64,000 bases of DNA from positions 1 to 64,000 of the forward strand of contig JAEPQH010000017.1 in NCBI GenBank assembly GCA_017640605.1, read 5' to 3'. The position numbers and the translations under genes are program-made. Of this stretch, positions 43,701 to 53,000 are shown piece after piece (the stretch's first letter is position 1; each line of letters opens with the position of its first letter). The notes beneath the pieces were generated by a model. The model made no database searches. It had not been told where the DNA came from and was given only the letters and a program-made list of their open reading frames with translations. The DNA comes from Balneolaceae bacterium (GTDB lineage Bacteria > Bacteroidota > Rhodothermia > Balneolales > Balneolaceae).

Positions 43701-44591
43701 TTTCCAGATAAAATCAGTAAAACTGGTGATTGTTCTGGTTGGCGAACCCGTTACCGATTCTGTATTCAGCCTCTGACCATTTTCATCTCCAATAGTTAAG
43801 AAAACAAAACTAGAGTCACTGTAAGGATGGATACTATGACTGAAATTATCGGAAGATCTTGTTATTTGATGAGGTGAATTACCATAAAAAACCACTCGGT
43901 CACTAGTATCGAAAGAACCATCGTTTTCGCCTTCAACTAAAATTGGAAGTTCTTTGAATTCCGGACGTGGCGCATTATTGCTCTCCGGAAGCATATAACC
44001 ATTGGTTCCCCAAAGCTGGATTCTCCGCGGATCAACTTGGTCAACATTTATCCCAAGATCACTTAAATAGGCAGCATTCAATTGATAAATTCCACTTTTC
44101 GCGACTGGGATTTTAAACCAACTACCGGAGGAAAGTGGTTCTTCGTTGATGGTAGTAACTTGTTTAGTCCTGAGTTGAGTTGCGTATACCGGTTTTTTAA
44201 CTCGAACACGCAAAAATTCAGTAACGAAGGTTTTTTGATCGGATACTCTGGCTACGTGTATTTTTAAGGAAGCAACTTGTTTACCTCTAGTTACTCCAGG
44301 GTTTAGTACTTCGGTAACACCCACGGAATCAGTTGATAATGCCAGACCTAAAACCTGATCAGCGGATAAAACAGCGTTTTTTTCAACAATACGTTGTTCT
44401 AATATTTGGAAAGGATTTGCTGAAAGTACATCAAAAAGGACCTCGAAAGGCGGAGCTATTTGTAAGTTTGCATTTTCAAGTACATACTCCGTGTATTCAG
44501 CATTTTCCGAAATAGGATAAAACTGTTGAGCGAAAAGTTGCAAAGGACTCCCGCAAATAAATAATAACAGGTAGAAGAGTCTTCTACGCAT
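40713..44591 (-). CDS. porU: Type IX secretion system sortase PorU (C25 peptidase)
   Basis: The 1292-residue protein has a signal peptide (LQLFAQQF) and an N-terminal beta region. Its gingipain-type C25 catalytic domain carries His778 in NYSGHGNTDV and Cys812 in TATCQFGRYDD. The domain is preceded by PDYIVVTSELFKPFAD and RYLLLFGDTTYD, both hallmark PorU segments. After an Ig-like part the C-terminus is a type IX-like sorting domain (YNYPNPMNNKTAFTF to the end), as in known PorU, where it anchors the sortase. It removes CTDs of secreted cargo and transfers them to lipopolysaccharide. ATG 44591 is chosen over an upstream TTG. This is the first gene of the long operon down to phoH. Confidence 0.95.
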   Translation of the reverse strand: MRRRLFYLLLFICGSPLQLFAQQFYPISENAEYTEYVLENANLQIAPPFEVLFDVLSANPFQILEQRIVEKNAVLSADQVLGLALSTDSVGVTEVLNPGVTRGKQVASLKIHVARVSDQKTFVTEFLRVRVKKPVYATQLRTKQVTTINEEPLSSGSWFKIPVAKSGIYQLNAAYLSDLGINVDQVDPRRIQLWGTNGYMLPESNNAPRPEFKELPILVEGENDGSFDTSDRVVFYGNSPHQITRSSDNFSHSIHPYSDSSFVFLTIGDENGQRLNTESVTGSPTRTITSFTDFIWKEEELTKAEDRQKSGRYWLGQRIPATAQNSAVTIFQDTIPGISSASNLKVSGRMYARALRTTNFRLDINGTTLSQLSINRVSGGYLSYNGDAANGRTFASTVSPSLSDNIITITATMSNADDGANGFVDYLRLQVERELIAENNYLMFMPPLNDSPNDLARFILQGFTSSPLVLDVTDTTNPVHINAASSGTNYEIVTEQNDTRRFIAQVNYFTPKPGTSIPNQNLRGITSYPDYIVVTSELFKPFADELAQHRANEGLTPLVVTQSQILNEFSGGAKDPTAIRDFVKFLYDRASNDNATLPRYLLLFGDTTYDTKNIINNAYTNYVLTYQSPNSLSRIGSYASDDYFGFMDAGEGGFVSGSRIDIGIGRIPAQTRREARVALDKIYRYENPEHDGDWQNLFTFAGDDDFPDRETNRDLHVWNADGTADRMNIIDSGLRLKKIYLFAYQEEITGSGREIPGASEDFINTLNNGTLVMNYSGHGNTDVLSDEELFTIEDIPNLTNSNRLSVIVTATCQFGRYDDISQQSGAEQLFFADNGGAIASFTTTRIVYTSSNPNGGQNFALNIALSQEMLVRDENGLPSRLGDIFYRTKNTSAGASSNSRRFILLGDPALRLALPDKPAQLTAINNINVAENDTVLTIKALDQVTLKGEVLKADGTKDSGYNGLVNVTLLDAKRNVTLPQNLEWIEDDGCYLYEFTERECTYEVENTVLFKGKANVTGGDFSIDFVLPKDISYSPDQARIVLFASGDEYTAGGSFTNIIFNGINENAVNDGSGPELDIFLNDESFFNGDLTTDKPTLIVELADSSGINATGTGVGHEIIATIDTKPTRTFVLNEFYEGALNDFSKGRIEYPLDELPQGNYSLKVRAWDVHNNPSEESIFFEVAESEDLVIDQVYNYPNPMNNKTAFTFEHNQQGNALEVDIKIYTLSGKPVQHLQEYITNTSSSYASIPWNGRDRDYDRLGNGTYIYVLRVTADTPEGKKSTEKIEKLVIIR

Positions 44592-44812
44592 ATTATACAA
44601 TCTATTGTTATTGACTTGAACGTCGTTACAGTAGCGGGTCTAGTCTATAGGAAACCTGTTTAATTATCGATTAAGAGAGGATTTCTCCATACTCTGCTTA
44701 TTTCATAAAAAGAAAGAAATAGTAGCGGTAGTGTATGGTAATACAGGTTTTGTTGCTGTTTGAGTGTCAATAATAGCTTAGAACCAAGATAATGTCAATG
44801 CTTTAGGAAAAA

Positions 44813-45991
44813 TTACAGCATTTCTACAACTAACGCAGAAGCACCGCCACCACCATTGCAAATACCGGCACAGCCATATTTGCCGCCTGTTTTTTTAAGA
44901 GCATGCAGCAGAGTTACTACAATACGTGCACCCGAACAACCAATTGGATGTCCAATACTTACAGCACCGCCATGAATATTTACTTTTGCAGGATCGAGTT
45001 CTAAAATTTGGTTATTAGCCAGCGAAACAACCGAAAAGGCTTCATTTATTTCAAATAGATCTATTTCATCTTTTGTTTTTCCGGCTCTTTCGAGTGCGAT
45101 TGGAATAGCATCAGCAGGAGCTGTAGTAAACCACTCAGGAGCTTTTGCAGCACTTGCGTGGCTAACGATTCGAGCGATTGGAGTTAATCCTAGTTCATCT
45201 GCTTTTTCTTCGCTCATCATCAAAACAGCAGCGGCACCATCATTAATGCTGGATGCATTTGCGGCAGTAACTGTTCCTTCTTTTTCAAAAACAGGACGAA
45301 GCGAAGGTATTTTATCGAAGTTTACACGATCAATTTCCTCATCTTTTTCCACCATCGTTACATTACCACGTCGATCGGTCACTTTCACTTTAATCAACTC
45401 ACCGGCAAAATCTCCATCTTCAAAGGCTTTTAAAGCTCTTTTGTAAGATTCGATCGCAAATTCATCTTGTTGCTCTCGGCTGATATTACATTCCTTAGCA
45501 CAAAGCTCTGCAGCATTCCCCATCGCATAGTTATTGTATACATCCCACAAACCATCTTTTAAAATACCATCTTCAGTTTGCACATGACCGTATTTTGATC
45601 CAAATCGCTGCTTTGGCAAGTAATAAGGAACATTGCTCATGCTTTCCATACCACCGGCAACCATGATGTCGGCTTGACCTAACATAATTTGATCGGCTGC
45701 AATCATAATTGCTTTCATCCCGGATGCACAAACTTTATTTACCGTAGTAGAAGGTGTTTTCTGAGATAAACCGGCTTTGATGGCGGCTTGCCGAGCGGGA
45801 GCTTGTCCTACACCAGCACTTAAAACGTTACCCATCACAACTTCCTGAACATCATCAGGTTTAATACCTGCAGACTTTACCACCTCAAGAATTGCCATTG
45901 CACCCAGTTCAGGCGCTGTAAAGGAGGCGAGTGATCCGCCAAATGATCCGATTGGTGTTCTCTTTGCTTCTACAATTACTACGTTTTTCAT
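44813..45991 (-). CDS. Acetyl-CoA C-acyltransferase (thiolase)
   Basis: The 392-residue thiolase has the nucleophilic Cys88 in NKVCASGMKA, the NEAFSV block, GGAVSIGHPIGCSGAR with the general-base His, and the C-terminal CAGICNGGGGASA with the second Cys. All catalytic residues are present and the length is typical. It either condenses two acetyl-CoA (AtoB-type) or cleaves 3-ketoacyl-CoA in beta-oxidation; sequence alone does not separate these. Given the dehydrogenase and hydratase genes in the window, beta-oxidation is plausible. The gene is monocistronic, with no close neighbours on its strand within 80 bp. Confidence 0.9.
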   Translation of the reverse strand: MKNVVIVEAKRTPIGSFGGSLASFTAPELGAMAILEVVKSAGIKPDDVQEVVMGNVLSAGVGQAPARQAAIKAGLSQKTPSTTVNKVCASGMKAIMIAADQIMLGQADIMVAGGMESMSNVPYYLPKQRFGSKYGHVQTEDGILKDGLWDVYNNYAMGNAAELCAKECNISREQQDEFAIESYKRALKAFEDGDFAGELIKVKVTDRRGNVTMVEKDEEIDRVNFDKIPSLRPVFEKEGTVTAANASSINDGAAAVLMMSEEKADELGLTPIARIVSHASAAKAPEWFTTAPADAIPIALERAGKTKDEIDLFEINEAFSVVSLANNQILELDPAKVNIHGGAVSIGHPIGCSGARIVVTLLHALKKTGGKYGCAGICNGGGGASALVVEML

Positions 45992-46016
45992 GTATAAACT
46001 GATGGGAAATTGAAAT

Positions 46017-46040
46017 TTAAAAAAGCGCTTTTTCAGCGCC
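46017..46040 (-). terminator. Rho-independent terminator after metB
   Basis: Read leftward, the arm GGCGCT pairs with AGCGC around GAAAA and is followed by six T. It lies about 35 bp after the metB stop. It separates metB from the thiolase gene. Confidence 0.7.
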
Positions 46041-46074
46041 TTTCAAGATAAAAATTGTACTCTAAAAAAATGGG

Positions 46075-47211
46075 TTAAAATGCCTGATCTAAATCAGCGA
46101 TTAAATCTTTTACATCTTCGATTCCTACTGAAATTCTTATCAAAGAATCTTCTAAACCGGATTTTTGGCGCAGTTCTTTTGGGATGGAACCATGTGTCAT
46201 CGAAGCAGGATTACTGATTAGTGATTCTACACCACCAAGGCTTTCTGCAAGAGTGAAAATTTTAGTGCTACTCATAAATTTTGTGGCGGCTTCGATCGAG
46301 TTATCCTTTAGTGTAAAAGATAACATCGCCCCAAAATCGTCCATTTGTGTTTTAGCAAGTTCATGCTGTGGGTGATGCGATAAACCCGGATATAGAACCT
46401 TGCCCACTTTTGGGTGTTGATCAAGAAATGTGGCTATTTCTTTTGCATTTTCTACCGATCGTTGAACACGAACGGCTAAGGTTTTAATACCTCTTAGAGT
46501 GAGGTAGCAATCCATTGGGCCGGGAACAGCGCCACCTGCTTTTACCTGAAATCTCAAATTTTCCATAATTGCAGGATGAGAGCTCGCAACTGCACCATGT
46601 ATAACATCAGAGTGTCCGGCCAGGTATTTTGTTGCACTGTGCAGTACAGCATCTGCACCAAATTCGAGTGGGCGTTGCAAGTACGGTGAAGCAAAAGTAT
46701 TGTCTACAATGGTGAGAATATCCCTTTCCTTTGCGATCTCAATCAGACTTTTCATGTCTACGATTCGCAGAAGTGGATTGGTAGGAGTTTCGATCCACAT
46801 CATTTTTGTATTTGGACGAATCGATTTTTTTACCAAATCGAGATCAGTCATATTTATAAAAGTAAATTCGATTCCGTAAGGTTCGAAAATACTGGTAAAC
46901 AATCGGTATGATCCACCATATAAATCATCAGAAGATAAAATGTGATCGCCCGGGCGGAACATTTTCATTAAAGCATCCATCGCAGCAACACCACTCGAAA
47001 AACAAGCAGCTTCATCAGCTCCCTCTAATCCTGCAATCAGTTTTTCTAAAGCTGTTCGGGTAGGATTGCCAACGCGGGCATAATCATAACCTTGATGCAC
47101 ATTAGGCGCAGCTTGTTTATAGGTGGAAGTTTGAAAAATTGGGGGCATTACAGCACCGGAGGTTTCTTCCGGTTGTTGCCCTGCATGGATGGCTTTAGTA
47201 TTAAATTTCAT
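46075..47211 (-). CDS. metB: Cystathionine gamma-synthase / trans-sulfuration PLP enzyme
   Basis: The 378-residue PLP enzyme of the Cys/Met metabolism family makes cystathionine from an activated homoserine and cysteine, or acts as cystathionine gamma-lyase. Seen are the N-terminal HAGQQPEETSGAVMPPI, the YARVGNPTR motif, WIETPTNP, and the PLP-binding Lys195 in HSATKYLAGHSD. The sequence is of the MetB/CGL type; gamma-lyase activity cannot be excluded. It is the last gene after the two TPR lipoproteins on the same strand (5 bp gap), with a terminator behind it. Confidence 0.85.
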   Translation of the reverse strand: MKFNTKAIHAGQQPEETSGAVMPPIFQTSTYKQAAPNVHQGYDYARVGNPTRTALEKLIAGLEGADEAACFSSGVAAMDALMKMFRPGDHILSSDDLYGGSYRLFTSIFEPYGIEFTFINMTDLDLVKKSIRPNTKMMWIETPTNPLLRIVDMKSLIEIAKERDILTIVDNTFASPYLQRPLEFGADAVLHSATKYLAGHSDVIHGAVASSHPAIMENLRFQVKAGGAVPGPMDCYLTLRGIKTLAVRVQRSVENAKEIATFLDQHPKVGKVLYPGLSHHPQHELAKTQMDDFGAMLSFTLKDNSIEAATKFMSSTKIFTLAESLGGVESLISNPASMTHGSIPKELRQKSGLEDSLIRISVGIEDVKDLIADLDQAF

Positions 47212-47216
47212 AAGAA

Positions 47217-48416
47217 TTAAGAGTTGCCAAAACGGTTAGTTTTTAGCTTTTCCAGCATATCTATGCTGGCATTAATCTCAGCATCTCCGGGATTCATCGA
47301 GCTAAGAATTTGATAATATTGTATGGAAAGGTCGAGAAGTGCTTCTGCTTTATTTAAGAATAACTCTTTGTCTTCTTCAGGCGATATCGCTGAAAGAGAT
47401 AAATAGATAGCCGTCATATTGTTATAAAATACAGCAAGGCTTTGAACGTATTCTTGCTCAGTATTTTCCAGTTCGTAGGCAGTGATAAGTTGTTCTTCTG
47501 CTTGTTCGCTTACGCCTTCAGCTTCAAATTTAAGCTGGTCGATAAACGTTGGATCGTTAGCGATATACGCATCGGTAAGATCTTCGAGAATGCCTTCCGC
47601 AATAAAGAAGAGTTGGGTTCCATATACATTACGTATGCGAGCATCATCGGGAAATTGAACGGTTAATTGTTCAAGCAAATCGATGGCCTTTTCACGCCTT
47701 TGATTTAGTATGTAGGTGTTTACTAGACCAAAAGCGATGTTCTTGTTGGCAGTAACATCAGTATTGGCAAGCTCATAGTAAAAGATGGCTTGCTCTGAGT
47801 TATTATTCTGCAGGTGTAAAAAGCCCAGATATTCGTAAAGTTTGTCTGGTACATCTTCGAGCGTTGTTTGGGCAGAATTCAAAGTTTCAATGGCGTCGGT
47901 AGTCTTATTTGAATTGTACAAAGCTACCGCTTGCGACATATACGCTTTTGGGTCTTGTGGATTCAAAATGATTGCATTGCTAAAATGAGCAATAGCTACA
48001 TCAATTCGGTCAGAAAGTGATTGATTTTCATACAAATCAGTTCCGGTATTAAGTTCATCTGCCCAAGCTGAATTCAGTTCATTAGAAACGGTTATTGATT
48101 GGTCATTAGTTAGATCCATAGCAGACGCAGCATTAAACGATTCTACTGCATTTTGGTAGAACTCAATTCGGTCGTAAACTTCCACATCTTTTGCAAGAGT
48201 GAGGTAGATTTGTCCACGCTGAATTAATAGTTCCGGCTGATTTGGATTGTTAGAAAGTGATGCCTCAATGGCATTAAGCGCCTCGGTATATTGTTGCTCA
48301 TCCACTAAAGTGGTTATAGTTGGCGCAGAAGATGAACATGAGAAAAAAAACCCGATTGCAAGCACGAAGCCTGCAAATCGGGAATATTGATTTTTTTTGG
48401 ATAAAGTATTGTGCAT
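47217..48416 (-). CDS. TPR-containing lipoprotein
   Basis: The 399-residue protein (ATG 48416) has a lipoprotein signal peptide with the lipobox GFFFSC (Cys about residue 27). Tetratricopeptide repeats follow, such as NPNQPELLIQRGQIYL and NPQDPKAYMSQAVALY, forming an alpha-solenoid for protein binding. It resembles the upstream lipoprotein at 48416 in layout and is probably a paralogue by duplication. Its start shares one base with the stop of that gene (TAATG). The codons of its signal peptide contain a terminator-like hairpin (see the separate entry). Upstream extension in the open frame is ignored because it lacks any signal. Confidence 0.75.
   Translation of the reverse strand: MHNTLSKKNQYSRFAGFVLAIGFFFSCSSSAPTITTLVDEQQYTEALNAIEASLSNNPNQPELLIQRGQIYLTLAKDVEVYDRIEFYQNAVESFNAASAMDLTNDQSITVSNELNSAWADELNTGTDLYENQSLSDRIDVAIAHFSNAIILNPQDPKAYMSQAVALYNSNKTTDAIETLNSAQTTLEDVPDKLYEYLGFLHLQNNNSEQAIFYYELANTDVTANKNIAFGLVNTYILNQRREKAIDLLEQLTVQFPDDARIRNVYGTQLFFIAEGILEDLTDAYIANDPTFIDQLKFEAEGVSEQAEEQLITAYELENTEQEYVQSLAVFYNNMTAIYLSLSAISPEEDKELFLNKAEALLDLSIQYYQILSSMNPGDAEINASIDMLEKLKTNRFGNS
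48343..48382 (-). terminator. Terminator-like hairpin within the signal-peptide codons of the TPR lipoprotein gene
   Basis: On the minus strand CCCGATT/AATCGGG form a stem that extends through GCA/TGC around a TTCGT loop and is followed at once by T8. It begins about 34 bases after the stop of the upstream TPR gene and lies within codons 12-25 of the downstream one. By position it could end the upstream transcript or act as an intra-operon attenuator. Confidence 0.6.
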
Positions 48417-49705
48417 TACATGCCTGCTTTTTCCATAGCTGCTTCCGCTTTTTCGCGGTAGTCTAGCAAGGTGTAGATTCTGAATAGCGTTTCCCAAATA
48501 CCTTGATCGTCAGGATTTAGTTCCGCTGCTTTCTCATAATTGAGCATTGCCTTTTCAGCTTCTGCACGTGCTAATTGATCCAATCTCTCAGCTTCGTCAT
48601 TATCAGTAGTCATATTGCGCTGCTCAAATAAAGCCGCTGCTTTATTCTGATAAAGAATACCAAGTGTGTTAAAGCTTACCGGATTAGAGTCATCAAGTTC
48701 GATAGCATTTAAAAGTGCAGCTTCTGCACGATTCGTTAAGTCGTCCTGTTGATTAAGGATTTCTTCGTTTCTTTCTTCAAGTGCTTGAATTTCGGCTTCA
48801 TTTCCATCACCGTTTCTTAAATCGTACAACTTATCGTTGTTATCCTGATACTCATCACTCAATTCCTGAACTCGTTGATAGATCTGAGTTCCAACCACTA
48901 AGTGATATTGTGGATTGCTAGGCTCGCGAGCGATTAATTCAGCAACTACTTCTAAAGCAGCATCCGTTTGCCCGGTTTGGAATAAAGCATCGGCTTTCTT
49001 TTGTACAAGAAATACGCTGTCAGGGTAAATTTCGAGTCCTGTATTTACAGATTCGAGAGCGGAATCGAAATCATCTAACATGAAATAATAAGAAGCTAAA
49101 CGATCGTAATCGGCTGCGTCAGCTTCGCCACGAATTTCCATAGCTCGTTCAAGTGATTGCGATGCACCGGTATAATTACCGTCCATGTGATAAATTTGTG
49201 CAAGTACATCATGCGATAGTGCACTATCAGGGTTGATAGTTACAGCGTTTTGTAAATGAGCGATAGCCACTTTAAGTGGTTCATCTACAGTTGCCATTAC
49301 ACTGTCGTCGGTTGCATAGCCAATTGCAGCATTATGCTCACGGCTCCAGCTTTCAATGGTTAGTTCGGTGATCTGCTCTGATTCGAATGGAGGATCTTCC
49401 ATATTGTCGAATTTCTCACGGGCAATCATAAGGTTCTCTCTCATATCTGCGAGTATAGGCTTACGATCGGTGATAACGGGCTCGTTCGCGGCAATTCTAC
49501 CTAAAGCATAAGCTTTGTAGTAGTTTGCTTGACCATTCATTGGTTCAGCGGCAATTGCTGAATCTGCAGCAACTAGTGCCGCTTCATAATTTTGCGAATT
49601 GATACCCTGCTTAATTGGTGTTATTAACTCGTTCTCAGGTCCACAACTTATGAGTAGAAAAGTAAGAGCAAACACGCTAAAGAGACTATAAAAGTGCTTT
49701 TTCAT
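48416..49705 (-). CDS. TPR-containing lipoprotein
   Basis: The 429-residue protein begins with a lipoprotein signal peptide (lipobox LLISC, Cys about residue 21). It holds several TPR units, for example PDSALSHDVLAQIYHM, EADAADYDRLASYYFM and DSNPVSFNTLGILYQN. It should be anchored in the envelope and act as a scaffold; no catalytic domain is present. It precedes the second TPR lipoprotein with a one-base TAATG overlap. The gap to ridA upstream on the other strand is about 125 bp and holds the likely promoter. Confidence 0.8.
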   Translation of the reverse strand: MKKHFYSLFSVFALTFLLISCGPENELITPIKQGINSQNYEAALVAADSAIAAEPMNGQANYYKAYALGRIAANEPVITDRKPILADMRENLMIAREKFDNMEDPPFESEQITELTIESWSREHNAAIGYATDDSVMATVDEPLKVAIAHLQNAVTINPDSALSHDVLAQIYHMDGNYTGASQSLERAMEIRGEADAADYDRLASYYFMLDDFDSALESVNTGLEIYPDSVFLVQKKADALFQTGQTDAALEVVAELIAREPSNPQYHLVVGTQIYQRVQELSDEYQDNNDKLYDLRNGDGNEAEIQALEERNEEILNQQDDLTNRAEAALLNAIELDDSNPVSFNTLGILYQNKAAALFEQRNMTTDNDEAERLDQLARAEAEKAMLNYEKAAELNPDDQGIWETLFRIYTLLDYREKAEAAMEKAGM

Positions 49706-49830
49706 TGCAAGTGTTTTGAGTGTGTATGATTAAAATAGTTACTAGATTAGGAAAAGTAACCATATAATGAACTTTGTGCAATAAATCGGCCATCTAGTTC
49801 TATCAAAAAAATGCAATTGGAGTATCAAAA

Positions 49831-50208
49831 ATGAAGGAAATCATTTCTACAGAAAAAGCACCGGCGGCAATAGGCCCGTATAGTCAGGCAACTAGTTATA
49901 ACAACATCATTTATTGTTCAGGACAAATTCCATTGGACCCGCAAACTATGCAGATTGTTGGTGAAGATGTGACAACTCAAGCTAAGCAGGTGATGAAAAA
50001 TTTAGAAGCTGTATTAGCGGCAGCAGGATCCGATTTTTCAAAAGTGCTAAAATGTTCAATCTTCTTAGATAGTATGGATGATTTTGGAGCAGTAAACGAA
50101 GTTTATGGAGGATATTTTACCGAGAACCCACCCGCTCGTGAAACGGTAGCTGTTCAAACTTTGCCAAAAAATGTGCTTGTCGAAATCAGCTGCATCGCAC
50201 ATAAATAA
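49831..50208 (+). CDS. ridA: RidA family protein (2-iminobutanoate/2-iminopropanoate deaminase)
   Basis: The 125-residue protein matches the Rid family: APAAIGPYSQA, IYCSGQIPLDP, VLKCSIFLDSMDDF, and the C-terminal PPARETVAVQTLPKNVLVEISCIAHK with the substrate-binding Arg. It hydrolyses reactive enamines and imines formed by PLP enzymes such as the cystathionine enzyme encoded nearby. It is divergent from the TPR gene and faces the M23 peptidase gene. Length and motifs are normal. Confidence 0.95.
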   Translation: MKEIISTEKAPAAIGPYSQATSYNNIIYCSGQIPLDPQTMQIVGEDVTTQAKQVMKNLEAVLAAAGSDFSKVLKCSIFLDSMDDFGAVNEVYGGYFTENPPARETVAVQTLPKNVLVEISCIAHK

Positions 50209-50216
50209 GTGCTTGT

Positions 50217-52031
50217 TTATCTATTAAACGTTTGAAACGTCGAATTGCCCGCATTGTCGCTTACAATAACTTCAATGCGGTTTAATTCTTGGGGGTTGAA
50301 TTCCGGATGGAGATAAATTAAGATCTCTTCCTCAAAATCGTATTCAGTAATCCCTCTTGTACCATTTACTTTGATTTCAGAGTTTTTAAAATCAATTCCG
50401 GAAAACTCGTCAGCTACTGCAACTTCAACCTGCCAAATTCCCCAATCAGTTTGAACTATATTTACTGCAGATATCTCAGGTGGATTGGCGTCTGAAAATA
50501 CTACAAATTCGCCGAGTTGATTTGTTCTAGCATGAATAGTTTTTCCTTTTAAGGTAGAAGGGACGTGCGAAAATCTATCTCTTAAGCGATCGAAGTGAAA
50601 CAATTGTGGATTAGCACCCAGAGTATCTAGTTCGTTCACATAATATTCGATGAAAATGTTATCACGCAAAGCGGCTGTGTGTGGTTGTATCTGAAGAGCA
50701 GGAAAACCATCAAAACTGCCAGTAAAAAGTGCTATACTTAGTTCATCAAAAGTGCTTTGACTTGGAAAATGGATTTTAGCGTTGCGATCAGTGCTCCAAA
50801 TAGTGGAAGACTGATCGGGAAAAATGCGAGTGAAAAGTAGTTTATTTTCATCAACATATAGTAGCCGTTGCTGGCTATCCCTGTTCCAGTTTACACCAAA
50901 GCTGCTCGAGGTTAAATCAATTACAGAAGCATTATGCTGCACCAACCAATCATTTTGCCAATACCAATTTTCTTTATCCGGCAGATCATTTGAGGAAGCA
51001 ATCTGCACATCTTCTTCAAGCTTTAAACCTATTGTAGCCAATGTTTTATTGCCGTAATAGTCTGAAACAGAAACTAGATATTCTTTAGAAACTGAATCTG
51101 GCATGATTAATCCATTTCCATATTTCTGTTTATAAAAAGGTACTTTAGTAATTGAATTATCAAATAAGGTTTGAAAGGAGCGACGTGATGCACCAAAAGC
51201 GGCGATTCTATCTAATGGCATTGTTATAGCTTCATCGAAATGAAAAGATTTATGTACGCTTTGAAATAACGTATCAGACTGTTGAGTTAGAGTGTAATCG
51301 AAGGAAGCGTATTTATTGGTTACATTATCGGCGCCATCATACTCTGAAATAGCAATTTTCACTGGGCCTCGAGCTTCTAGGTTTCCAAAAGTTAGAGTGT
51401 CGTTTTTTTGATTTTCAGGATAGAAAAGTTGAGGAAATCTGCTTCCATTAACAGTGGAGGAATCAGAAGCCGGGATCACCAACATCGAAGAAATAGTGGG
51501 GGAAATAGAGTCTGATACTTTTAAATTGGTATGTAGAGCATTCACCGCTACGTCATCTCCGTCTCTAATCTCAAAATGCAAGTGCGGCGGACCAACGCCG
51601 GTTGATCCGGTATAGCCAATCACATCACCTTGATTAAACCGCCACTTATTATCAGATAAACTAATATCTATTTCAAAGCGATGATCAATTAAGCGTAGTG
51701 AATCGATGTAGCTTTGCAGCTCCGGGATAAATCGTTGAAGGTGCGCATATACTGTTACGGAACCATCGGAATGCGTGAGATACAATACCCTGCCATAACC
51801 ACGCGATGAGATCGCCATTCTGCTCACAAAACCATCTTTGCTGGCAAATACTCGATAGCCTTCTCTGCCCCAGGTTTTTATGTCAAGCCCGGAATGGAAA
51901 TGCGCAGACCTCGTTTCCGCAAAAGTTGAGCTAAGGTAGGGACTAGCATCGGTAGGCCAGATATAGTCTTGAGTTTGAGAGAATAATAAATTGGATTGAA
52001 TGCTAAGAAAGCAGAAAACAAGTATTCTCAT
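50217..52031 (-). CDS. Secreted M23 family metallopeptidase (LytM-type)
   Basis: The 604-residue protein has a signal peptide (LLFSQTQ) and, near the N-terminus, an M23 domain: HFHSGLDIKTWG (first His and Asp ligands), VYAHL, and GPPHLHFEIR (HxH motif with catalytic His). These are the zinc and catalytic residues of LytM/lysostaphin peptidoglycan endopeptidases. A long region of beta-sandwich-like character follows (about 200-604). It likely trims or remodels cell-wall cross-links. The gene is co-transcribed with the FAH-family gene (one-base overlap). Confidence 0.85.
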   Translation of the reverse strand: MRILVFCFLSIQSNLLFSQTQDYIWPTDASPYLSSTFAETRSAHFHSGLDIKTWGREGYRVFASKDGFVSRMAISSRGYGRVLYLTHSDGSVTVYAHLQRFIPELQSYIDSLRLIDHRFEIDISLSDNKWRFNQGDVIGYTGSTGVGPPHLHFEIRDGDDVAVNALHTNLKVSDSISPTISSMLVIPASDSSTVNGSRFPQLFYPENQKNDTLTFGNLEARGPVKIAISEYDGADNVTNKYASFDYTLTQQSDTLFQSVHKSFHFDEAITMPLDRIAAFGASRRSFQTLFDNSITKVPFYKQKYGNGLIMPDSVSKEYLVSVSDYYGNKTLATIGLKLEEDVQIASSNDLPDKENWYWQNDWLVQHNASVIDLTSSSFGVNWNRDSQQRLLYVDENKLLFTRIFPDQSSTIWSTDRNAKIHFPSQSTFDELSIALFTGSFDGFPALQIQPHTAALRDNIFIEYYVNELDTLGANPQLFHFDRLRDRFSHVPSTLKGKTIHARTNQLGEFVVFSDANPPEISAVNIVQTDWGIWQVEVAVADEFSGIDFKNSEIKVNGTRGITEYDFEEEILIYLHPEFNPQELNRIEVIVSDNAGNSTFQTFNR

Positions 52032-52681
52032 TACTTAATTTTTACACTCACCGATATATTAAGTTGAGGTAATTGAGAGGTGACAACATCACCGGATTCT
52101 ATAGCAGAAACTCCGGCCGGAGTTCCGGTGAAAATGAGATCTCCCGCTTGAAGTGTGAAAATGGTAGATAAATAAGAAATCAGTTTCTCGAAAGAGAAGA
52201 TTAACTGTGAAGTATTTCCCGATTGACGAATTTGTTCGTTAACTCTCAACTCAAGTTCAATAGAGTCAGTAATTAAATCCGATAAAGGCTTAAATGAACT
52301 AATGGGTGCGAAACCGTCAAAGCCTTTTGCAACCGACCAGGGTAATCCGGCTTTCTTTGCTTCCGATTGGATATCTCTCGCCGTAAAGTCGATACCTGCT
52401 CCAATACCTGCTACGTACTCAAACGCTTTAGTCTCTTCAATATTTTTGCCGGATTTACCAATTGCCAAAACAATTTCACCTTCATGATGCACATTTTTAC
52501 TCTGTGGTGGAATGGAAATGGTATCTCCATCGTAGCAAATTGAAGAAGTAGGTTTTAGAAATACGATGGGAGCGGAGGGTGTTTCCGCATTCATTTCTTT
52601 TGCATGATCTGCAAAGTTTCTACCAATGCAGTAAATATTTCGAATGGGAAGCTCAAGTCCCGGAATAGTTTTTTGATCCAT
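52031..52681 (-). CDS. Fumarylacetoacetate hydrolase family protein
   Basis: The 216-residue protein is a single FAH domain: IYCIGRNFADHAKEM, FLKPTSSICYDGD, the metal-binding Glu in HHEGEIVLAIG, the GIDFTARDIQ segment, and DLIFTGTPAGVSAIESGD near the end. Members act as acylpyruvate hydrolases or oxaloacetate decarboxylases; the substrate is not fixed by sequence. It overlaps the M23 gene start by one base on the downstream side. A strong bidirectional terminator lies 10 bp before its start. Confidence 0.9.
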   Translation of the reverse strand: MDQKTIPGLELPIRNIYCIGRNFADHAKEMNAETPSAPIVFLKPTSSICYDGDTISIPPQSKNVHHEGEIVLAIGKSGKNIEETKAFEYVAGIGAGIDFTARDIQSEAKKAGLPWSVAKGFDGFAPISSFKPLSDLITDSIELELRVNEQIRQSGNTSQLIFSFEKLISYLSTIFTLQAGDLIFTGTPAGVSAIESGDVVTSQLPQLNISVSVKIK

Positions 52682-52691
52682 TGAGCAAATA

Positions 52692-52725
52692 TAAAAAAAG
52701 CCACGCTGTAGTAGCGCGGCTTTTT
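52692..52725. terminator. Bidirectional rho-independent terminator after rpmA
   Basis: The arms GCCACGCT and AGCGCGGC pair with one G-U wobble around a 5-base loop, with A7 on the left and T5 on the right. On the minus strand it terminates rplU-rpmA about 20 bp after the rpmA stop. Confidence 0.9.
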
Positions 52726-52745
52726 AAAATCTTAAAAAAGATCGT

Positions 52746-53000
52746 TTATGCAGTTTCTACATTAACGAACTTTCGTCCGCCTTGTGCAGTACTGAACGAA
52801 ACGTGACCTTCAGCAATGGCAAACAAAGTGTCATCGCCTCCACGTTTAACATTTAATCCGGGGTGAAATTTTGTGCCACGCTGACGTACGATAATACCAC
52901 CAGCTCTCACGAATTCCCCACCAAATTTCTTTACACCAAGTCGTTTACTTTCAGAATCTCTACCGTTTTTGGTTGAACCCTGACCTTTCTTATGTGCCAT
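52746..53000 (-). CDS. rpmA: 50S ribosomal protein L27
   Basis: The 84-residue protein starts [16 protein letters not shown] and continues with [23 protein letters not shown] and TKFHPG, the full bacterial L27 signature. The N-terminal part lies near the peptidyl-transferase centre. No N-terminal extension before AHKKG is present, so no prior cleavage as in Firmicutes is expected. It is transcribed with rplU upstream (25 bp gap) and followed by a strong terminator. Confidence 0.97.

Follow-up and report, generated by a model that had tools for sequence, protein, structure and literature searches.

Can one stretch of DNA end one gene and, in the same letters, encode the beginning of the next? 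The question is raised by two adjoining genes on the minus strand of a 64-kb segment of Balneolaceae DNA (64,000 nucleotides, contig JAEPQH010000017.1), referred to here as the window. Gene 1 (48416..49705) encodes a TPR lipoprotein of 429 aa, and gene 2 (47217..48416) encodes another of 399 aa. For both, the term lipoprotein was read off the signal peptide and lipobox in the sequence. The stop codon of gene 1, TAA (48418-48416), overlaps the ATG of gene 2 (48416-48414) as TAATG. Between the stop codon of gene 1 and the lipobox of gene 2 lies a hairpin that looks like a transcription terminator.

Directly behind gene 2, and thus downstream of the hairpin, is the gene for a PLP enzyme of Cys/Met metabolism (46075..47211, minus strand). 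The same order is found in the relatives examined; in 12 of the 13 loci inspected by eye, a PLP-enzyme-like gene starts at most about 90 nt downstream of gene 2. In one of the other genomes (G110, locus L093), gene 2 and the PLP-enzyme gene are separated by another terminator-like hairpin, at about 2284-2317. Among named genomes there is a single match, with 84% protein identity, in the Balneolaceae metagenome-assembled genome JAEPNO010000002.1. The host genome contains a tmRNA gene.

The minus strand from 48382 to 48351 reads CCCGATTTGCAGGCTTCGTGCTTGCAATCGGG, and a run of eight T residues (T8, the U-tract of the RNA) follows at 48350-48343. The first part forms a hairpin of 13 pairs with a 5-nt loop and one bulge, a structure supported by the predicted fold and by covariation in 75 aligned copies. 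It begins 33 nt after the stop codon of gene 1 and occupies codons 12-22 of gene 2; the T8 occupies codons 23-25 (F-F-F), where third-base T is enriched in relatives beyond what the amino acids need. Together, codons 12-25 read S-R-F-A-G-F-V-L-A-I-G-F-F-F, and S26 and the lipobox Cys27 come directly after. Like an intrinsic terminator, the gene 2 hairpin has a stable GC-rich stem directly before a U-tract. The initial annotation had placed a hairpin resembling a terminator across the signal-peptide codons. Sequence, fold and conservation in relatives strongly support that description, and its codon numbers and stop-to-stem distance proved correct when the sequence was read again.

The fold of the minus strand between 48330 and 48440 (111 nt) has an energy of -27.8 kcal/mol and a z-score of -2.87, with 2 of 200 shuffled sequences equally stable. 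For a somewhat longer piece of the plus strand (48300-48440, 141 nt) the z-score is -1.32, and 20 of 200 shuffles are equally stable. The window was also scanned for terminators, defined as hairpins of -12 kcal/mol or lower with at least 6 T in 8. Among the 10 sites found, the gene 2 hairpin is the most stable (-19.7 kcal/mol) and the only one with T8. Four were judged to look like classic terminators, at 132, 12641, 52694 and the gene 2 hairpin, and of these only the last overlaps a listed ORF of at least 100 aa. A looser scan of 44000-53000 gave 14 terminator-like sites, the gene 2 hairpin included, compared with 7.3 in shuffled sequences. A search of 47000-50000 against Rfam, at E values up to 5, returned one match, which lies elsewhere and below its gathering cut-off. 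A run of eight A residues on the minus strand (window 48391-48398) precedes the hairpin, and thus the plus strand too has the hairpin, 8 nt and then T8. The nearest relative (L004) lacks this A8 run.

How widely is the arrangement conserved? The gene 2 protein, used as the query, matched 88 of the 92 family genomes and 122 of the 128 in the order, paralogues of gene 1 being counted in. The loci around 103 of these matches were read. Eight had no gene 2 or had its start off the contig (L096, L098, L099, L101-L105). At 94 of the other 95 gene 2 starts, the signal-peptide codons contain a hairpin with a T-rich tail; 93 were found by script and one (L085), dropped by the script's Cys filter, by eye. 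The sole miss is L035, from a genome of group g19, in which the lower stem is broken and the fold reaches -9.2. Another g19 genome (L030) has a weak hairpin. Four further loci, L218-L221, also carry the hairpin; they were fetched through matches to the RNA model and were therefore left out of the 95.

The RNA model is a covariance model of the element. In the host genome it finds the hairpin site with an E value of 2.3e-12, and the next-best site has 0.004. At E values of 1e-4 or lower it recovers the element from 92 of the order's 128 genomes. Among the 116 other genomes of the class it gives one match. The single match outside the order (G159, E 8.4e-5 under stricter filters) is an intergenic hairpin in another setting. 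At the same threshold the model misses 7 of the 99 genomes with a gene 2 start that was read: the single broken hairpin and others that are short or long. A second, weak match near 9e-5 occurs in two genomes of the family (G024, G064). Seventeen of the 128 order genomes are without a locus reading, either because there was no protein match (G048, G080, G081, G083, G113, G124) or because the neighbourhood of the match was left out (G094, G097, G098, G099, G108, G112, G116, G117, G120, G121, G125); the model has no match at 1e-4 in these 17. The protein profile, for which TPR proteins of any kind may count, matches 242 of 244 genomes of the class. Thus, the hairpin has a narrower distribution than the protein family.

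Selection on the RNA can be recognized by changes that preserve pairing. Of the 93 scripted copies, 75 have a hairpin of 32 nt and can be aligned without gaps. Standard pairs are formed in 94.7% of the 975 cells of this alignment, compared with 21.1-46.8% when the partner is slid by 1-3 columns. Double-change cells number 119, a value reached by 0 of 500 shuffles (mean 36.2). How many pairs show any double change says little: there are 8, compared with 6.5 in shuffles, and 64 of 500 shuffles reach 8. A single Fitch reconstruction, covering 12 pairs on a FastTree tree built from the flanking protein sequences, counts 41 double and 29 single changes from one pair to another, along with 16 losses; no support values were used, which makes the count a rough one. 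G-U cells outnumber A-C cells by 58 to 9, or by 53 to 6 without an ambiguous pair, which indicates that it is the sense (coding-strand) RNA that pairs. A palindromic DNA operator was also considered, and was rejected by inference because the letters of the stem change while the pairing is kept.

The pairing also leaves its mark on the codons. When the protein was held fixed and the codons were resampled, 25 of 46,500 versions were as stable as the natural ones, with a mean of -6.0 compared with -19.0 kcal/mol. All 93 copies use GGG for the Gly that closes the stem, compared with 14% GGG in the available gene 2 bodies; the script's pattern favoured such ends, yet L035 alone departs among the 95 loci. 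Residues that face each other across the stem are Ala/Ala in 38 of the 75 aligned copies, Thr/Val in 16, Ala/Val in 7 and Val/Thr in 4. Val/Ala, Ser/Ala and Leu/Ala occur twice each, and Val/Ile, Ile/Ile, Ala/Leu and Thr/Ala once each. Across these relatives, RNA pairing helps to set which amino acids the gene 2 signal peptide may have. The initial annotation had offered conservation of the hairpin in relatives despite codon drift as a check. Loss of pairing in relatives was looked for, and the opposite was found: the 94 of 95 starts, the covariation, the codon resampling and the double changes on the tree all speak strongly for conserved pairing.

The reading frame is kept at the same time. 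Hairpin lengths in the 93 copies are 29 (7 copies), 32 (75), 35 (3), 38 (1) and 41 nt (7), all in one phase, which implies that the frame is maintained as well. Seven intergenic hairpins of the same CCCG..CGGG kind, found in genomes without gene 2, are 24, 25 or 28 nt long. In the gene 2 signal peptides with hairpins of 38 or 41 nt (L044, L046, L047, L050, L054, L058, L059, L073), the inserts are paired too and extend or cap the stem, leaving the frame intact. The start codon shows a regular spacing too. In 85 of 93 copies the ATG precedes the Arg codon by 6 or 7 codons, which places the start of the stem at nt +17 or +20 of gene 2; in the window these values are 12 codons and +35. The distance from the gene 1 stop to the Thr codon is 29 to 65 nt in 62 of the 63 loci measured and 137 nt in one.

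In the U-tract, codon choice is biased at the third bases of the three codons after the stem. T is found there in 71, 90 and 80 of the 93 copies, where 54.6, 61.8 and 54.8 would be expected from the amino acids (binomial test, uncorrected for relatedness). A T run of at least six occurs in 76 of 93 copies, and one of eight in 46. In lineages g3, g6, g9, g12, g15, f2, f3 and f5 g36 the tract is interrupted (TTCTTT, GGGTTCTTTATT or similar), and thus a strong terminator has not been kept everywhere.

The same design is used elsewhere in the host genome. It holds 32 CGGGTTTTTT sites, compared with 21 for the pattern read backwards. One of the 32 is the gene 2 element, one (on C33) was left out, and 30 were read as loci. 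Nine of these show a CCCG..CGGG hairpin with an energy of at most -9 kcal/mol and overlap no sense frame longer than 80 codons and no antisense frame longer than 150. A loose hairpin at L121 (-12.3) lies in the middle of a gene, and the remaining loci have a weak hairpin or none. Likewise, 18 of 20 further covariance-model matches, with E values up to 10, overlap no sense frame longer than 90 codons. The other two are L177, 8 codons into an open frame without a preceding ATG, and L186, which matches poorly and lies in mid-frame. For four of the 20 there is an overlap with an antisense frame longer than 90 codons. The CCCG..CGGG-T6 design thus also makes ordinary intergenic terminators in this genome, and a genome-wide habit of terminators inside ORFs was not found among the CGGGTTTTTT sites and covariance-model matches.

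Genomes without gene 2 show what follows gene 1 in its place. An intergenic terminator separates gene 1 from the next gene in 9 of 12 such genomes, which are not independent, five being of genus g34 and two of g20. Seven of the nine terminators are of the CCCG..CGGG kind (L098, L101-L104, L223, L226) and two have another sequence (L099, L227). In the other three loci (L105, L224, L225), where 62, 8 and 8 nt lie between the genes, no terminator was found after gene 1. Gene 1 therefore tends to be followed by a terminator both where gene 2 is present and where it is absent.

Taken as a whole, the element is probably the intrinsic terminator of gene 1, placed in frame within the signal-peptide codons of gene 2, with gene 2 and the PLP-enzyme gene expressed by read-through. 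Several other explanations are conceivable. The hairpin could be a by-product of a conserved signal-peptide sequence, with no function as RNA. The peptide pattern around T-R...G-F-F is indeed itself conserved, but facing residues change in sets (Ala/Ala, Thr/Val, Val/Thr, Ile/Ile), and the rarity of equally stable resampled versions and the double changes on the tree led to the rejection of a constraint from the protein only. This explanation is thus extremely improbable. It is unlikely, to a much lesser degree, that the hairpin acts after transcription with little termination, whether by protecting the 3' end of gene 1 mRNA, as an RNase site, or by slowing early elongation for membrane targeting. 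Such a role would suit the lineages in which the hairpin is kept although the U-tract is interrupted. The enrichment of third-base T after the stem points instead to termination, as do the plain terminators built alike at other places in this genome and those that follow gene 1 in genomes lacking gene 2.

The hairpin might also be an attenuator that senses translation. Prompt initiation by a ribosome on gene 2, whose ATG comes a short way ahead of the stem and in the window overlaps the gene 1 stop as TAATG, would decide whether the hairpin forms, and read-through would report translation of gene 2 or its coupling to gene 1. The edge of an initiating ribosome's footprint lies at about nt +17 to +20, which is where the stem begins in 85 of 93 copies, with the window's +35 as a departure. 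However, short n-regions are normal in signal peptides and explain this spacing equally well, and the distance between the gene 1 stop and the Thr codon varies among loci. A sensor of this kind is rather improbable.

In the terminator reading, which comparison among genomes supports well, a polymerase leaving gene 1 would make a GC-rich hairpin and a U-tract 33 nt past the gene 1 stop. The last ribosome on gene 1 would be too far behind to cover the hairpin, and some of the polymerases would be released at the U-tract. Only read-through transcripts would carry gene 2 and the PLP-enzyme gene, leaving gene 1 in excess. The frame and lipoprotein signal of gene 2 would be under selection at the same time, so that one stretch carries two codes. 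We infer that polymerase does stop at the U-tract, as well as the placing of the ribosomes, the extent of read-through and the dosage that follows from it. The initial annotation suggested that the overlap may make the two lipoproteins unequally expressed, which is a reasonable prediction. If termination is effective, too little RNA would reach the PLP-enzyme gene, unless a promoter of its own drives it. In the available text of PMC13323073, which concerns ribosome-polymerase coupling, Bacteroidota are absent from the list of runaway phyla.

Terminated transcripts would contain the start codon of gene 2 without its stop codon. If the hairpin terminates, an ordinary lipoprotein operon would be a steady source of non-stop mRNA. 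One may go further and suppose that the normal mRNA of gene 1 is non-stop by design, with ribosomes running off the end on gene 2 and tmRNA rescue and decay controlling gene 1. This extension, which follows what is reported for zntR upstream of arfA, is improbable. If it were true, the gene 2 signal peptide would serve on most transcripts as a decoy ORF, one retained across much of the order.

Related arrangements are known. In the frd-ampC attenuator of E. coli, one hairpin is both the terminator of the upstream unit and the attenuator of the next gene. The gene 2 element would resemble it in this double role, but the frd-ampC hairpin sits before the ampC ORF and not in its codons.

Terminators inside ORFs have also been described. 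In brfA of B. subtilis, a Rho-independent terminator lies inside the ORF, and synonymous changes that break the hairpin raise expression of a downstream lacZ (PMC6881298). As in brfA, the hairpin of gene 2 lies inside an ORF ahead of its stop codon. The brfA terminator comes late in a 71-codon ORF; translation yields about 62 residues, and this shortened protein is a rescue factor. In gene 2, on the other hand, the hairpin comes at codons 12-25 of 399; the truncated product would be a signal-peptide stub, and the gene encodes a TPR lipoprotein. A second example is zntR-arfA of E. coli, where a hairpin inside the arfA ORF gives non-stop mRNA and the upstream zntR is repressed via trans-translation (PMC10107115). 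Gene 1 occupies the place of zntR, upstream of the ORF that bears the hairpin. Unlike the gene 2 element, the arfA hairpin falls late in its ORF, as that of brfA does; it is an RNase III site as well, and arfA codes for a rescue factor.

Other reports concern termination inside operons and ORFs more generally. In the archaeon Methanococcus maripaludis, terminators internal to operons set unequal dosage by lowering the genes behind them; the abstract, unlike the present case, describes no hairpin in signal-peptide codons (PMC10450193). Numerous RNA 3' ends of E. coli map within ORFs or in 5' UTRs, and some of the ORF-internal ones carry an intrinsic-terminator score. A terminator that covaries and sits in a signal peptide is not described in the available text of that report, in which the term "signal peptide" occurs 0 times (PMC7815308). 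A search of titles and abstract beginnings in open-access PMC found no literature on the gene 2 element. Terminators inside ORFs are thus already known; what is unusual here is the position at the start of the ORF, the signal peptide and the depth of conservation. The locus offers a clean natural case of one DNA stretch with two codes, RNA pairing and a membrane-targeting peptide, whose amino acids covary through base pairing. The some 99 genomes form a comparative set in which terminator strength can be set against U-tract and reading frame.

Some further observations were made in genomes without gene 2. In four g34 loci, a promoter-like sequence was seen by eye after the terminator. In L224 and L225, both of g20, the PLP-enzyme gene is also absent beside gene 1, and a thiolase-like gene starts 8 nt after gene 1. 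In genomes of f5, a repeat of about 60-80 nt whose arms face each other lies ahead of the PLP-enzyme gene; no Rfam family was found for it at gathering score in the nine loci searched. L101 has two copies on the minus strand that are 92% alike over 63 nt, and the element was also recognized by eye in L226 and L227.
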